From positions 1-35,939 of the forward strand of contig ONYA01000033.1 of assembly GCA_900321965.1 (NCBI GenBank): a DNA stretch of 35,939 nucleotides. The letters run 5' to 3'. The DNA is from an uncultured Prevotellaceae bacterium. GTDB taxonomy: Bacteria > Bacteroidota > Bacteroidia > Bacteroidales > Bacteroidaceae. Below the pieces are notes generated by a model. That model did not search any database. It saw only the letters and a list, made by a program, of their open reading frames with translations, and was not told the DNA's origin. The translations under genes were made by a program, and so were the position numbers. Numbering within the stretch: the first letter of the stretch is position 1; the number at the start of each line of letters is the position of its first letter. Positions 4,277 through 10,975 of the stretch are shown piece by piece.

Positions 4277-4284
4277 TAATTTTG
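4277..4284 (+). promoter_or_regulatory. -7 element for the lone AAA ATPase gene
   Basis: TAATTTTG matches TAnnTTTG and is 36 bases before the ATG at 4321. No clear TTTG is found at the -33 position; the region there is T-rich. Confidence 0.5.
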
Positions 4285-4320
4285 CAGCCTATATTTGAGC
4301 AAAAATCACAAAATCGAGTT

Positions 4321-5619
4321 ATGATAACGAGCTTTACCGCGGAGAATTACCGTTCGATAGACGAAGAGATCAAACTGTCATTTGAAGCTGATACGGGCAT
4401 CAAAGACATGAACAACAAAGGCTTCACCATTGTTGCAAACACTCGTGTGCTTAACGCCAAGGCTTTTTATGGAGCCAACTCCAGCGGTAAGTCGAACGTA
4501 TTCAAGGCCATTGGAAGAATGCGGGGTATTATTATCCATTCGGTGAGGCTGAACGATAACGAAACGCTACCGTATGATGCCTTTCTGCTTTCGGACAAAG
4601 AGGCGAGGCCAACGAGATTTGAAATGTCGTTTGTAGACGGCACCGACAAGTTTACCTACGGATTCAGCTATACCGCACAACGGATAGAAGAGGAATGGCT
4701 AATAGCGAAATTTCCCAAGCGATCGCTGAAAACGCTGATGAGGCGGACTCCCGATATGATAGAGATAGACGAGCAGAACTATCCGGAAGGGCTGGCCATA
4801 AAAGAAGGAACCATCCCCCTGAATAACAATAGACTTTTCATCTCGCTTGCGGCACAGCTGGGTGGGAAAATATCGAAAAGGGTGATAGAGTGGTTCAGAA
4901 CCAAACCCAATGTGATTTCCGGTTTGCGCGACAGCGACTTCTCACGCTATACAAAGGAGATGCTGCATACCAAGACAGACTACAAGGACGAGATTCTGGA
5001 CTTTATCCGCGGTATGGATGTGGGCTTCCGCGAAGTGACTACCGAACAAGAGCTCATTGATGAAAAAATGTTGCCCAAAGGACTGCCAGCGGAAATAGTG
5101 ACCTCGCTGAAAGAACACCCGCCCATTGTTGCCTATGCAAAGCACAGTAAAATAAATGTAGATGGTGAAGTAGTGGGGATGGTGGACTTTGACATAGATG
5201 AAAGAGAGTCGGACGGCACGAGGAAACTGTTTAATCTTGCCGGGCCTATTGTTGACACCTTACGGCAAGGGAAATCGCTGTTTGTGGATGAACTGGATGC
5301 ACAATTGCACCCGCTGCTGTCGCGACGTATTGTAAAACTGTTTAACTGTGCTGAAACGAACCCTCACGGAGCCCAACTGATTTTTACGACTCACGATACC
5401 GACATGCTTTCGAAGAAACTGCTGAGACGAGATCAAGTGGTCTTTGTAGAAAAGACGGTAAAAACTAGCTATTCTACGAAACTCACACCGATGATGAGTA
5501 TAACGCTGGACAATGGGGCAAAGCCTAGGACAGATAGCAACTACGAAAAGAACTATTTGGAAGGTAAGTATGGGGCAATTCCATACTTTGAAGATGAGTT
5601 TAAAGGTTGTAACGAATAG
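4321..5619 (+). CDS. AAA_15/AAA_21-type (RloA/AbiLi-like) ATPase, lone copy
   Basis: A 432-residue ATPase. The ATG at 4321 (MITSFTAENYRSIDEEIKLS) gives the usual start of this family, where a strand and 'NYRSI' precede the P-loop. Visible motifs are Walker A GANSSGKS (51-58), an ABC-like signature ESDGTRKL (296-303), Walker B SLFVDELD (319-326, D323 E324) and a switch His in TTHDT (H358). The C-terminus LEGKYGAIPYF is also typical of RloA/AbiLi-type proteins, which couple ATP hydrolysis to a TOPRIM partner in phage defence. No partner gene follows; the next DNA is an opposite-strand Crp remnant. It is therefore either an orphan or a system that lost its effector. Confidence 0.85.
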   Translation: MITSFTAENYRSIDEEIKLSFEADTGIKDMNNKGFTIVANTRVLNAKAFYGANSSGKSNVFKAIGRMRGIIIHSVRLNDNETLPYDAFLLSDKEARPTRFEMSFVDGTDKFTYGFSYTAQRIEEEWLIAKFPKRSLKTLMRRTPDMIEIDEQNYPEGLAIKEGTIPLNNNRLFISLAAQLGGKISKRVIEWFRTKPNVISGLRDSDFSRYTKEMLHTKTDYKDEILDFIRGMDVGFREVTTEQELIDEKMLPKGLPAEIVTSLKEHPPIVAYAKHSKINVDGEVVGMVDFDIDERESDGTRKLFNLAGPIVDTLRQGKSLFVDELDAQLHPLLSRRIVKLFNCAETNPHGAQLIFTTHDTDMLSKKLLRRDQVVFVEKTVKTSYSTKLTPMMSITLDNGAKPRTDSNYEKNYLEGKYGAIPYFEDEFKGCNE

Positions 5620-5888
5620 AGAGAGGATGCGAAGCCCGTGTAGTAGTTCTTGTCCTCCTCATCATTCTTGGACAAGCTAAACGTCATAAGCGCCGAGCGA
5701 TGCGCCATGTACTTGAAGCATTCCCGCTCCACGTAGGCCACCCACTGCGCCGGTTTGCCCGCCTCCTCCAGCGTCTCGCCCCGCAGGAACGACCGCCGCT
5801 CCCCGTGCTTCATGCAGTACTCCCGCAGGAACTCCAAATCGAGTCCCTCCTTGTAGGTGTTGAAGTGCTTGTTCTGTTGGTGTGTCAT
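5620..5888 (-). pseudogene. Crp/Fnr-family regulator, N-terminal fragment
   Basis: From ATG 5888 the frame reads MTHQQNKHFNTYKEGLDLEF, then the sensor-domain stretch with LRGETLEEAGKPAQWVAYVE and ECFKYM. A divergent continuation, DEEDKNYYTGFAS, is the usual next segment of these regulators. Family resemblance stops near 5622, and the helix-turn-helix half is absent; the open frame runs on into the antisense of the ATPase gene. The junction lies exactly at the ATPase stop codon (5617-5619), suggesting that the ATPase segment arrived by replacing the 3' half of this gene. It differs in sequence from the Crp-like remnant at 2466-2935, so it is a separate paralogue. Confidence 0.75.
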
Positions 5889-5919
5889 ATTTTACGTTTC
5901 GTTTGGGTCACAGAATACG

Positions 5920-6963
5920 TTATGATGTTTGTTTGGGGATATGAAGAATAAATTCATTTTCAGAAAATGATATTTTTCCTGTTTTTCTTATTTCTTCGCC
6001 AGGCTTTATTATAAGTTTTGCATTGTGAAGTTTTACCATTATATTAACCAAATACATACCAAGACCCTGGCCTGCTGTTTTTTGTTCTACAGCAATTTTC
6101 CCAGAATATCCTTCGTTGTATATTTGATCTAAATCTTCACTATATATGTGATAACTTGTCATTAAAAATGTTACAATATTACTATCCGCATCCTCGCTAA
6201 ACATTACATGCAATACACTATTAGGCTTGATGTATTTCTCCGCATTTGCTATTAAGTGATAGAAAATGAATCTAATCACTGTAAAGTCAAAAACAACTCT
6301 TGCGTCATAATCCATAACATCAATGGTTACTTGCTTGTTGCTAAAGTCTGGCATGAATTCATGGAACACAAGCATCAATACATCATGTATGTCATATTTT
6401 CTTTTCTCTAACTGATATGGACTCTCCTTATGTGTGATGTGGTCATAAATAAATATCTCCTCGCTCATTGCTGTGTTTATCTTTGCAAGTCGGAGAATTG
6501 TATAAGCAGCATGATGTGCTTTTGTTTTTATCTTCTCCCTCACGCCAGGAATAACAGACTTTATATCATAGGCGAACTGCTCTGGTTCAATGAAATTGGT
6601 TAATTCTTGTATTGCATGCGCATTCTGAGTCTTTATATTATGGATAATACGATCCATCTTTTGCAATTCTGCTTCATGCACACTTTTTTCTATCTCTTTA
6701 CGAAAACGCATTAATTGCGGAATAGAGTCAACTACATTTTGCAATTCTGTCCTAAAATTGCGTGCGGTTAAACCTTCAGCACATACTTGAGCATACCCCT
6801 TGCTACTTTTTTTACATCCAATGCGTCGGTTAACTTTATCCACAGGACATACTACGTTAGAGATGCCTTCTGAATTCACTTGATGAAGACAAATGTCACA
6901 ATCTGGATATTTTAGGTTGTTTAGGAGTTCTTCTCCGACTCCATAAATTACGCGTTTTTCCAT
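5920..6963 (-). CDS. Soluble histidine-kinase-like protein with Cys-rich N-terminus
   Basis: A 347-residue protein with no membrane helix. Residues 20-65 carry five Cys (C22, C25, C39, C50, C61), which may bind metal or sense redox. A helical region includes an H-box-like RIIHNIKTQNA with H108. The C-terminal half resembles a GHKL ATPase: N-box-like FYHLIANAEKYI (N240), F-box-like IYNEGYSG and a G2 box GQGLGMYLVN (299-307). The G1 box Asp (D-x-G-x-G) is not visible where expected, between about 265 and 275 (FLMTSYHIYSEDL), so ATP binding may be altered. Its start overlaps the receiver gene by 16 bases, so the two form a coupled pair. The family is inferred from motifs; the biochemical role is untested. 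Confidence 0.75.
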   Translation of the reverse strand: MEKRVIYGVGEELLNNLKYPDCDICLHQVNSEGISNVVCPVDKVNRRIGCKKSSKGYAQVCAEGLTARNFRTELQNVVDSIPQLMRFRKEIEKSVHEAELQKMDRIIHNIKTQNAHAIQELTNFIEPEQFAYDIKSVIPGVREKIKTKAHHAAYTILRLAKINTAMSEEIFIYDHITHKESPYQLEKRKYDIHDVLMLVFHEFMPDFSNKQVTIDVMDYDARVVFDFTVIRFIFYHLIANAEKYIKPNSVLHVMFSEDADSNIVTFLMTSYHIYSEDLDQIYNEGYSGKIAVEQKTAGQGLGMYLVNIMVKLHNAKLIIKPGEEIRKTGKISFSENEFILHIPKQTS

Positions 6964-7592
6964 ATATCTTCAGCTAAAGTCTCGATAAGACTGACAAAAA
7001 CTGCAGGTTGCGAATTTTTTGGAATCTGGTCATCTGCTAATTTAATAGCCTCATGAAATAGTTTATGTTCTGGTATTGCTGAGTATATTACAACCTTCTT
7101 TTGTGGGTACTTTTTCTTAAGATCAACAACCAAGCCAAGCCCTTCGTCTTCATACAGAGTCTTGCCTACCCCAATAATATCAACGAATATGATATGAGCT
7201 TTTCTGATTCTTTCAGCATTAGTATCTCTTACATCGGCATTAGGGAAGAAAGATGTATTCTTCCAACCAGCTTTTTTCAAGATGGGAACAATCTTAAACT
7301 CTTTGTCATCATCTATAAAAAGTATATTAGTTTGTGCTTTAATGCCTTCTATTGTCAATGCAGGTGAGTCCTCTTTTTTTTCACCAACCGACTTGATCGG
7401 AGCAACAAAAGGCTGTGCCATGTTAACTGTTACATTTTGTGTTTGGCTATTAGATTGCGACTGTGTCTGTTTGTCTTCGCTTCTATTGTTCTGCGTAAAG
7501 AGTTTTTTTACTACAAAAGCGATTATCGTGATACCAAGTCCACTAAATAGCCACTCTCTGTTTTCGATAATCCAATTAATGATTTGTTCCAT
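6948..7592 (-). CDS. Membrane-anchored receiver-domain protein
   Basis: A 214-residue protein. One hydrophobic segment lies near the N-terminus (about 14-32, FSGLGITIIAFVVKKLF), then a Gln/Ser/Asn-rich linker (33-60), then a response-regulator receiver domain (about 87-210). The receiver shows the acidic triad DDD at 94-96, the likely phospho-acceptor D138 in HIIFVDIIGVG and S171 in VVIYSA. There is no DNA-binding or enzymatic output domain. Tethering a receiver to the membrane is unusual and suggests signalling by protein contact rather than transcription. It lies 52 bases behind the RloB-like gene and overlaps the kinase-like gene, so it probably shares their transcript. Confidence 0.75.
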   Translation of the reverse strand: MEQIINWIIENREWLFSGLGITIIAFVVKKLFTQNNRSEDKQTQSQSNSQTQNVTVNMAQPFVAPIKSVGEKKEDSPALTIEGIKAQTNILFIDDDKEFKIVPILKKAGWKNTSFFPNADVRDTNAERIRKAHIIFVDIIGVGKTLYEDEGLGLVVDLKKKYPQKKVVIYSAIPEHKLFHEAIKLADDQIPKNSQPAVFVSLIETLAEDIWKNA

Positions 7593-7644
7593 TTTAATTA
7601 ACCTTTTTGTTCGTAGGAAAAGATATTATTTCTAATTCTTAGCA

Positions 7645-8250
7645 CTATAGTTCATTGAGTATTTCAGTTAATCGTCCAAGCTCCGAGTAAGTGTAATCCC
7701 GGCCCGAAGTTACCTTCTCATCCATCGACCGATTAGCATTGGCCACAGCCTTTTCAAGGCTTCCACCATTGCGCTCAAAGTATGAGTGCAATCCCTTACT
7801 CTTCATAAAGAATTCAATAGTTTTCCGATATTCCACACACTGGTTGAGATCTTTGAGCAGTGATTCCTGTTCATCGTATGGACGTGAGGTGTAGCGGAAA
7901 TAGTAGAGGAAGAATAGTTCGGTGCAGCGGTGGGTCTCGAAGAACTCGACCTTGCAGTAAATGCCTTTCCTTGGCTTGTTGATGGGGTTGGAATACTTCG
8001 CCTTCAACCTTTGATATTGGGTGCGCTCGGGCTCCTTATCCTTCGTGTCCATATCAATGATGCAGAAGATGTGGCTGTAGCCCATGGTAATGCCCTCTTC
8101 TATCTTGGCTTCAAGTTCCTTGAGGTTGGTGTGCTTGGGATAGTCTGGCTTGATGGTCAAGCGCTTGAACACATCACACAAAGATTTGAAGTAGAAGAAC
8201 TCGGTAGGCCCTTCACCCAAGATAAGTGCTGCTTGACGTTGTTTTCCCAT
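7645..8250 (-). CDS. RloB-like (AbiLii-type) TOPRIM protein
   Basis: A 201-residue protein with the RloB pattern. It has a first strand ending in EGPTEFFYF (E13, E17), then HIFCIIDMDTKDKEPERTQY with the D-x-D pair D66/D68, then ETHRCTELFFLYYF, equivalent to the family's 'PCFELWLLLHF' block. These acidic residues form a TOPRIM-type metal site, as in OLD and AriB nucleases. The family is the effector partner of RloA/AbiLi ATPases; in PARIS-like systems the TOPRIM subunit is released to cleave nucleic acid. Its ATG is one base after the ATPase stop, so the two are tightly coupled. The target is unknown. Confidence 0.85.
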   Translation of the reverse strand: MGKQRQAALILGEGPTEFFYFKSLCDVFKRLTIKPDYPKHTNLKELEAKIEEGITMGYSHIFCIIDMDTKDKEPERTQYQRLKAKYSNPINKPRKGIYCKVEFFETHRCTELFFLYYFRYTSRPYDEQESLLKDLNQCVEYRKTIEFFMKSKGLHSYFERNGGSLEKAVANANRSMDEKVTSGRDYTYSELGRLTEILNEL

Positions 8251-8251
8251 A

Positions 8252-9532
8252 TCAGTCCTCCAGATTTATAAAAATGCTACCCAGTTCTGGTTTTGCCCCT
8301 AATCGGCCAATCCGATAAGAATTATAGAGAGAGAGATTCTTGTGTAATCCAAATGAATCACCACGGGAATACTCGGATGATGCAGTTTCCTTGTTCTTTT
8401 CAACAAACCACACCACACCTCTGTTTTCATTGATCAAGTCTTGGGAAAGGAGTGTTGTCTCTTGGCTCGTGATAATCAACTGCGATTTCTCTGAGTTGAA
8501 AATGAATACATTGAGATAGTAGTACAACAAATCATTATGTAAATCCTCACCCAGTTCATCAAGATAATACACATGGGAACTTGTTATCATATCATATAAT
8601 GCATCCAATATGCGTATGTATTTTATTGTACCTTTTGACTGCCATTTGAGTGGAATGTCAAAATCCCCATCATTAGAATGATTGACAAACGCCACAGAGT
8701 CTGCCGTCGGTTTAAGCAAGGCTTCCTTCATTTCCTCGGGAATGTTTTCCTTTTGAATGCGTTCTCTATATTCTGATGGGACGAAACGATCTTCCACAAT
8801 AGGCCTATATTCTAGAATATTCAAATCGGCCTTTTGAAGCATTGTGTTATAGAATTTACGCTTTTTAGAAGTGTTGTATGCATCCTTTAAAATCTCGACT
8901 ATGCCTTTGTCTCCATCACCATCTATCTCATGATAGTTGTCCATAATCCAAGCGTGAAGCGTGTTGAATGGTGCTATATCTTCTTTTAATGCGGCTTTTC
9001 TACAAACGGACAATACGCTGTGGTTGTTCAGTGTGTTTTCACGGATGCTTTCCTGCGTCTTGGCTTGTAGTTTGAGACTCGCACCAAACTTTATGTCGGC
9101 CTGTACATTTTCGCCCACAAAACTACGCTCATAGAACAGCGATTTCGATTTGTTGGGGTAATAGTACAAGGCTTCACTCATAATGTGCTTGCCGTTGAAT
9201 GTGACATCGTAGTCATATCGGGTACCATCGGCATAGAATGATACGTGCATTTCCGTTGACTCATCTTTGCTGAGCACAAATGGAATACAGCCGCCTATTC
9301 CTACGGTTGCATCCGACTTTGGCATAACCAACATACGGAATACCTCGTTCATGGCAATCAGCATGTTTGACTTACCAGAAGCATTTGAACCATAGAGGAT
9401 GCCTAATTTATACAAGAACACACCATCAGCAACTTCGGTGACAAGTTCCGAAGATGGTCCCTTGGCCACAAAGCTTAATTCCTGCTTGTCGCGAATGGAA
9501 AGATAGTTCTTAACCCCAAAATCTCGTATCAT
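8252..9532 (-). CDS. AAA_15-type (AbiLi/RloA-like) ATPase
   Basis: A 426-residue ATPase and first gene of the four-gene block. Motifs are MIRDFGVKNYLSIRDKQELS at the start, Walker A GSNASGKS (48-55), an ABC-like signature WQSKGTIKYI (297-306) and Walker B VYYLDELGEDLH (D325 E326). The switch His of the usual TTHDT is replaced by Gln in TSQET (Q357), which could slow hydrolysis. The family forms oligomeric scaffolds that hold a TOPRIM effector until phage infection is sensed. The RloB-like gene follows by one base, giving the AbiL-type pair. It differs clearly from the lone ATPase at 4321-5619 and faces the opposite way. Confidence 0.87.
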   Translation of the reverse strand: MIRDFGVKNYLSIRDKQELSFVAKGPSSELVTEVADGVFLYKLGILYGSNASGKSNMLIAMNEVFRMLVMPKSDATVGIGGCIPFVLSKDESTEMHVSFYADGTRYDYDVTFNGKHIMSEALYYYPNKSKSLFYERSFVGENVQADIKFGASLKLQAKTQESIRENTLNNHSVLSVCRKAALKEDIAPFNTLHAWIMDNYHEIDGDGDKGIVEILKDAYNTSKKRKFYNTMLQKADLNILEYRPIVEDRFVPSEYRERIQKENIPEEMKEALLKPTADSVAFVNHSNDGDFDIPLKWQSKGTIKYIRILDALYDMITSSHVYYLDELGEDLHNDLLYYYLNVFIFNSEKSQLIITSQETTLLSQDLINENRGVVWFVEKNKETASSEYSRGDSFGLHKNLSLYNSYRIGRLGAKPELGSIFINLED

Positions 9533-9567
9533 ACTGCAATATTTTATTTATTATTGTAATTTTGCTA

Positions 9568-9575
9568 CAAAAATA
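9568..9575 (-). promoter_or_regulatory. -7 element for the four-gene ATPase block
   Basis: TATTTTTG on the minus strand matches TAnnTTTG and lies 35 bases ahead of the ATPase ATG at 9532. No good -33 TTTG is seen at 19-21 bases. It is the only promoter-like site found for the block; the gaps between its genes are 52 bases or less. Confidence 0.45.
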
Positions 9576-10054
9576 CAAACAATATTTGAGGTAACTGATA
9601 TGATTGTCGTTGTTTTTTGTAATTATAATACGATTTTATATATATTTAACTCTAATTTAAACTTAGAGATGGCAAATATGTACCAGTTTACGGTCCAACG
9701 TTGTTGGAAGAAAGTTCATTATATCTCATGAACACCTACAATGCCACTGCACTGGTAAAAAATTGTGATTTGTCCCTTTAGGAATAATCTCATGCACGTA
9801 ATATTATAAGGTACTATCATCGTCTCTGAATTTGTACATCAAGGCCACTATAACCCATTGTAAAAATAGTGACGTGCTGTCGCAGTTTAATACAGCCATC
9901 GAAGAAACTCCAACAAGCTATAACACAGCTCAAAATCTGCATATTTTATTTTTTTTATGGTTTCGTAAAGTTAAAAGTGTTAATTATTCTACTTTTTTAT
10001 CGTTCAATGAATCTACGGTTTCACTTTTCTACCGTTTAACTCGTAAATCACTAA
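9576..10054. other. Intergenic region, no convincing gene
   Basis: AT-rich DNA between the defence-like block and the leucine-rich repeat fragment. A weak open frame with a TTG start at 9832-10059 has partly coding-like residues (DVLSQFNTAIEETPTS) but no recognisable domain, and it degrades into AT-rich low complexity. It may hold remnants of the missing 5' part of the surface protein gene, but no repeat units could be read. Confidence 0.5.
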
Positions 10055-10975
10055 TATAAAGCAATATACAAATACATTGGCTGTAGCGGCCTGACAAGCA
10101 TCACCATTCCTAACTCCGTGAAAAGCATCGAGGTTGAAGCGTTCTCTGGCTGTAGCGGCTTAACGAGTGTAATATCCGAGATTACAGAACCATTTAATTG
10201 CGGAACAGATGCTTTCCCGGAGAATGCCTGCCGAAATGGTACGCTGTACGTTCCCGCAGGCACGAAGGACCTGTACATTCGGTTTGACGGTTGGCGCAAT
10301 TTCCTACATATTGAAGAGGGCGGTGAGACTGCCAAATACAAGCTCTCGTTCGTCGTCAACAACAAGGAATTGTCAACCAAGAATGTAGAAGTAGGTGCTA
10401 CCATCGCGCCTCCAACAACAGACGGCGAGGGCAACACCATAACGTGGTACACCTACCCCGCGACGATGCCCGCCCACGACCTGGTGGTCTACGGCATGGT
10501 GGTGAAGCAGCCGGAGCCGGAGGTGCTGGTATGGCTGACGGTGAAGGACGGACAGGGTACGACGAGGATGAAGGTAAGGCAGGGCACGGAACAGGTGCTG
10601 ACGATAACGCCCGAGGAGGGCTGGAAGGTGGTCAGCGTGACGTGGAACGGCACTGACGTGACGGCACAGACGAAGGATGGCGGCAGCTACACGACACCCG
10701 CCATCACGGGCGACGCCACCCTGGCCGTGGTCTACGAGCAGGACGCACCGTCGGACGTCGCCTCGGCAAGGGCCGGACAGGCCACGGTGACGGTGGTAGA
10801 CGATGGTGTCGTCATCGCCCATGCCGAACCGCAGAGCCGCTGCGTGGTCTACGCGTCGAACGGACAGCCGGTGGTCAGCACCGTCATCGAGAGCGACAGC
10901 CAGAAAATACGCCTGCAAAAAGGTCAGGTGTACATCCTGACCATCAACGGACGGACGCTGAAGTTCGCGCTGTAG
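10055..10975 (+). pseudogene. BspA-like leucine-rich repeat surface protein, 5'-truncated
   Basis: The frame opens after a stop at 10052 with no signal peptide or proper start. It begins inside LRR_5 (BspA/TpLRR) repeats: YIGCSGLTSITIPNSVKSIE, then AFSGCSGLTSVISEI. A cap region follows, then repeat-like extracellular modules (KLSFVVNNKELSTKNVEVGA and TVKDGQGTTRMKVRQGTEQV). The C-terminal 60 residues, ending QVYILTINGRTLKFAL, look like a type IX secretion sorting domain. Family members have a signal peptide and many more repeats, so this is the last third of a cell-surface protein. A GTG at 10118 could act as a start, but the product would not be exported. Confidence 0.75.

Follow-up and report, generated by a model that had tools for sequence, protein, structure and literature searches.

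An AbiL-type ATPase–RloB pair and a PDC-M43 receiver–kinase pair lie head to tail in an AT-rich segment of an uncultured Prevotellaceae genome

We analysed a stretch of 35,939 nucleotides (the window) from an uncultured Prevotellaceae bacterium (assembly GCA_900321965.1, contig ONYA01000033.1), in which four consecutive genes on the minus strand encode, 5' to 3', an ATPase, an RloB-type protein, a receiver-domain protein and a histidine kinase. Families were assigned from Pfam and PADLOC profile matches on translated open reading frames (ORFs). The four genes are as follows:

8252..9532, minus strand: AbiLi-type AAA/ABC ATPase, 426 residues (AAA_21, 7.5e-22; PADLOC AbiLi, 4.7e-59)
7645..8250, minus strand: RloB/AbiLii TOPRIM-type protein, 201 residues (PF13707, 4.8e-22; AbiLii, 3.8e-12)
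6948..7592, minus strand: receiver-domain protein with an N-terminal hydrophobic helix, 214 residues (PDC-M43A, 1.4e-62; receiver fold)
5920..6963, minus strand: cytosolic histidine kinase, 347 residues (PDC-M43B, 2.1e-83; DHp-CA fold)

All four ORFs are open. The spacing described in the initial annotation was confirmed: 1 base between ATPase and RloB, 52 bases between RloB and receiver, and a 16-base overlap of receiver and kinase. The AT-richness it had remarked on was also borne out, the GC content being 0.409, 0.464, 0.363 and 0.347 for ATPase, RloB, receiver and kinase, compared with 0.546 in the large ORFs past 13.6 kb.

The first two genes, an AbiLi ATPase directly followed by an AbiLii/RloB gene, form an AbiL-type pair, as had been proposed. 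The ATPase had been called AAA_15-type; it is indeed an AAA ATPase, but the AAA_15 match (0.00095) fell under its cut-off. It has the motifs GSNASGKS at residue 48 and YYLDE from residue 322, which we take to be Walker A and Walker B. RloB has the acidic motifs GEGPTE (residue 12) and IDMDTKD (residue 65), presumably those of a TOPRIM domain. Judged from these features, the ATPase is likely to be the sensor or antitoxin half of the pair and RloB its putative nuclease effector. Excerpts of PMC10440598 likewise give a TOPRIM reading of RloB-type proteins, describe a Clostridium pair in which an RloB-type toxin is neutralised by its AAA partner, and include AAA–RloB pairs (from the NetFlax study) with which the window pair shares its layout of two adjacent genes, ATPase, then RloB. 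Unlike the AbiL relatives surveyed here, however, the window pair has a receiver and a kinase behind it. A sequence search of the PDB gave no relative of RloB or the ATPase at useful E-values.

The layout of an ATPase and a TOPRIM nuclease, and possibly the logic of an ATPase sequestering a nuclease, are shared with PARIS, in which, according to excerpts of PMC12409363, a hexamer of AriA holds AriB, a tRNase. In contrast to PARIS, the window ATPase matched AbiLi (4.7e-59) far better than AriA (5.2e-19), and no AriB-type effector was found beside it, AbiLii being the sole PADLOC family matched by RloB at E<=0.1.

The second two genes correspond to PDC-M43, a candidate pair already catalogued by PADLOC, in both halves and in their order with a slight overlap; unlike PDC-M43 standing alone, the pair here sits behind an AbiL pair. 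The initial annotation's identification of a receiver and a kinase-like protein was upheld by profiles and predicted folds together, although its view of them as an undescribed addition was not, since PADLOC lists both. PDC-M43A and PDC-M43B also stand side by side in loci L042, L044 and L052. The Pfam matches were below cut-off (receiver, Response_reg 0.038; kinase, HATPase_c 2.4e-5, 25.2 bits against a cut-off of 26.4). In moderate-confidence models built from four-sequence alignments (mean predicted local distance difference test scores of 68.6 and 68.3 for receiver and kinase), the receiver matched response-regulator receivers (best 1.4e-6) and the kinase matched HK853-type histidine kinases with a DHp-CA arrangement (best 3.7e-12). 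The solved kinases matched by profile include SrrB and WalK/YycG.

In the receiver, D94, D95, D138 and K192 were unchanged in all 11 aligned relatives and S171 nearly so; we take D94/D95 to be the acid pair and D138 the phosphoacceptor. In the kinase, H108, N240, G298, G300 and G302 were unchanged in all 10, H108 presumably being the phosphorylation site and the others N and G2 residues. A putative membrane helix of the receiver, judged by eye, spans residues 14-28 or thereabouts, and Pfam recognised no output domain in the receiver protein. The kinase also has a Cys-rich N-terminal stretch (residues about 22-61, with CDIC, CP and C61), common to several but not all relatives, which is possibly a metal-binding sensor.

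We consider it probable that the locus comprises two separable two-gene defence units, lying one behind the other within an AT-rich, rearranged segment. One argument is composition: GC at third codon positions (GC3) is 0.445 and 0.599 in ATPase and RloB, and 0.321 and 0.296 in receiver and kinase. Further arguments are that each pair occurs elsewhere without the other. The 121 genomes surveyed from the same family gave 45 RloB matches, in 33 genomes, one being the window. We fetched the other 44 loci, which extended at least 1 kb behind RloB in 37 cases and at least 300 bases in 42, and neither their ORFs nor their six-frame translations gave a receiver or kinase profile match at E<=0.01. Eight of these loci hold orthologues of the window pair (ATPase identities of 90% in L115, 74% in L116, 92% in L117, 91% in L118, 85% in L119, 90% in L121, and 77% in both L122 and L124); all eight lack a receiver and a kinase. 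RloB of L115 carries an internal stop.

DNA similarity between the window and these orthologues starts at 9553-9677, some 20-145 bases before the ATPase gene. In seven of the eight it ends at 7645-7675, no more than 30 bases from the RloB stop codon, past which the sequences are unlike; in L116 it ends at 7756. From these limits, the shared piece is the promoter plus two genes. The tight same-strand genes behind the orthologous pairs vary, encoding a KAP NTPase in L124, a 273-residue ORF and then SIR2_2 in L121, and unknown proteins in L117 and L119. RloB matches on plasmids numbered three, and two of these loci were read. In one, on a Phocaeicola vulgatus plasmid (L157:3698-8206), TIR, SIR2 and TIR genes lie behind an AbiL-type pair more distant from that of the window; they are another tight downstream cargo, with the leading TIR gene overlapping the RloB stop. 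Relatives of RloB in viral_contigs were not confirmed, and tblastn of RloB in phages gave no match.

The receiver–kinase pair was read at 14 loci: the window, three from plasmids, three from genome_contigs and seven from whole-genome searches. The kinase lies behind the receiver in 13, the record of L041 stopping before it. Directly upstream of the receiver, an AbiL pair is present in two of the 14, the window (52 bases) and L044 (16 bases). Eight of the other 13 (L039, L040, L041, L042, L043, L050, L052 and L159) have neither an AbiL pair nor a nuclease gene there. Pairs free of AbiL occur in several Bacteroidota as well as on plasmids of Shewanella and E. coli, and this too favours two units; E. 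coli complete genomes gave no match to the pair from the E. coli plasmid. As to their surroundings, L039 has a HigB/regulator pair about 0.5 kb upstream of the receiver, L040 has an IS3 element beside the pair, and the opposite-strand genes beside the pair in L050 look to us like type I restriction. At E<=0.001 the PADLOC receiver model matched 102 of 393 genomes. The one strong match was that of the window's own genome (1.2e-61; next best 2.7e-8), and the other 101 are probably generic receivers. Further searches, over overlapping genome sets and with the own or centre genome counted in, matched 5/395, 3/395, 1/251, 1/276 and 2/104 genomes. No relatives of receiver or kinase were confirmed in viral_contigs, and tblastn of the receiver in phages gave no match.

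The sporadic distribution of the pair and its presence on plasmids, together with a receiver lacking a recognised output domain, speak against its being a routine two-component pair, without a defence role, that ended up in an island. The canonical residues and folds of both proteins would suit such a pair, no phenotype is known, and no paper naming PDC-M43 was found in the literature searched; we nevertheless think this unlikely.

Several observations weigh against separating the two halves. The RloB survey covers one family, with less than 1 kb behind RloB in seven of the 44 loci and less than 300 bases in two. Transcripts begun at the AbiL promoter could run on into the receiver and kinase genes, since a scan of 5500-10100 found nothing resembling a terminator and the 200 bases preceding the receiver hold no exact TAnnTTTG box. 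In three loci a same-strand gene for a nuclease or a methylase-like protein closely precedes a receiver–kinase pair (at most 43 bases): a NYN nuclease gene overlaps a distant receiver–kinase pair by 7 bases in L087 (L087:5578-7731), a PADLOC REase_II protein, itself behind a methylase, is encoded 43 bases upstream of the receiver in L088, and a methylase-like 914-residue ORF lies 31 bases upstream in L053. Finally, L044, from the uncultured Prevotellaceae RUG112, has ATPase, RloB, receiver and kinase in the same order, with spacings of 9, 16 and 15 bases, and an approximately unbiased (AU) test does not reject a clade of the window and L044 receiver–kinase pairs (p 0.241).

The initial annotation had put the four genes forward as a candidate single system, with a possible model in which the ATPase–RloB effector is set by the kinase and receiver once these sense infection or envelope damage, and had proposed looking for the same gene order in other genomes. 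The order did recur once, in L044, and a functional link between the halves is possible for that reason; the shared strand and short gaps also suit one system. However, a dedicated four-gene system should recur together and never apart, whereas both halves occur apart: the 44 other RloB loci, close orthologues included, lack receiver and kinase, and 11 of the 13 other receiver–kinase loci have no AbiL pair upstream (one more, L051, whose record ends 254 bases upstream of the receiver, was not readable). Moreover, the L044 run goes on into PDC-M36A, a third candidate system, 44 bases past the kinase. The L044 ATPase is only 23% identical to that of the four-gene window block (37% to a second, plus-strand ATPase in the window), the two RloBs have no BLAST similarity, and by sequence the L044 pair is a different subclass. 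A single four-gene system therefore no longer stands as the default, and we regard it as very unlikely.

A pair 80% (ATPase) and 78% (RloB) identical to that of L044 is present in L091, without receiver or kinase, so that both joinings, in the window and in L044, look recent and separate. GC3 in L044 is 0.455, 0.463, 0.381 and 0.379 for ATPase, RloB, receiver and kinase. The N-terminal helix is missing from its receiver, and the protein is extended at the C terminus by a stretch shared with L051 and L052; a joint receiver–kinase tree groups these three loci (90/95, not starred). The receiver and kinase trees are mostly unresolved and neither join the window and L044 nor firmly part them. Two separate joinings, through island traffic or functional preference, are the likeliest account.

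The same upstream genes might instead mean that the receiver–kinase pair is a portable module, able to work alone but also to attach itself behind many nuclease-type effectors, the ATPase–RloB pair being one of several partners. The AbiL pairs of the window and L044, NYN in L087, REase_II in L088 and the methylase-like ORF in L053, all on the same strand, fit this idea. However, 8 of the 13 other loci have no such gene, L053, L087 and L088 are weak relatives (receiver E 6.8e-11 to 1.1e-10), the methylase match in L053 (0.04) is under cut-off, and clustering in defence islands could by itself account for the pattern. This too we judge quite unlikely.

Returning to the two separable units, the region upstream of the ATPase contains three elements:

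9619..9631, minus strand: upstream copy of a twin GTA-N6-TTAC palindrome
9568..9575, minus strand: TATTTTTG, a TAnnTTTG promoter box upstream of the ATPase
9556..9568, minus strand: downstream copy of the twin palindrome, touching the promoter box

We take TAnnTTTG to be the Bacteroidota -7 box. The twin palindrome, 63 bases apart in the window, was present upstream of the ATPase in five of the eight orthologues as well, the spacing being 61-63 bases throughout. A TAnnTTTG-like box lies beside the nearer palindrome, exact in the window, L118, L119 and L124 and inexact in L115 and L117. Strict copies of the palindrome numbered one each in L121 and L122 and zero in L116. The window, the 44 loci and L044, together 360,865 bases, held no other such twin (at spacings of 50-75), and in this DNA it goes only with this AbiL subclass. 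These sites suggest that the AbiL cassette carries its own regulated promoter, under the control of some binding protein.

How the two units would act we infer as follows. In the first, an AbiL-type cassette expressed from its own promoter, the ATPase would hold RloB, the TOPRIM nuclease, in an inactive state until triggered by a phage; once freed, RloB would damage nucleic acid (perhaps RNA, if it resembles AriB of PARIS), and the infection would abort. In the second, PDC-M43, the cytosolic kinase would autophosphorylate at H108 after an intracellular cue and pass the phosphate to D138 of the membrane-tethered receiver. Lacking any other output domain, the receiver would deliver its output as a changed state at the membrane. 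Detocs, to which we likewise ascribe a receiver gene and a kinase gene, is the closest known parallel for two-component signalling in defence (excerpts of PMC11249213). The best described Detocs, according to excerpts of PMC11249213 and PMC10952713, has three genes, including an ATP-cleaving PNP effector; at our locus neither the four proteins nor the adjoining ORFs scanned had a Pfam match to PNP, and no third effector gene of that kind was found. Excerpts of PMC13092281 and PMC12839542 do not mention the four-gene combination, and the literature searched yielded no paper joining RloB, a histidine kinase and phage defense.

Beyond the kinase gene lies a convergent neighbour, outside the unit and not remarked on in the initial annotation:

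4282..5619, plus strand: second AbiLi-type ATPase (AbiLi, 6.5e-89)

It is 26% identical to the ATPase of the four-gene block, and no RloB was found behind it. A short minus-strand ORF at 5553-5888, without a Pfam match, resembles the first part of a regulator gene, of Crp type on visual inspection; its GC3 is host-like (0.867 over 5640-5888), and it is interrupted where the plus-strand ATPase block starts. For the wider setting we compared the region upstream of radC in 10 same-genus relatives. Nine of the 10 had an ORF nearby whose beginning we take to be elongation factor P-like, and nine a presumed glycosyltransferase-like ORF. Neither was seen in the first 11 kb of the window, which argues that the segment is rearranged or foreign.

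The locus illustrates that the tight same-strand packing of defence islands can mimic a new multi-gene system, and that a cheap test for such blocks is to look for orthologues of each half elsewhere. A speculative and on balance improbable extension is that PDC-M43 is a portable phosphorelay module that sits behind unrelated nuclease effectors, which it would gate or boost from its place at the membrane, and that also acts alone, with the twin-palindrome promoter of AbiL driving whatever cargo lies behind RloB. If true, a portable PDC-M43 would be a two-component analogue of swappable effector–sensor architectures, and should its repeated placement behind nuclease genes reflect function, it would provide a two-component input for effectors of the TOPRIM, NYN and restriction types.

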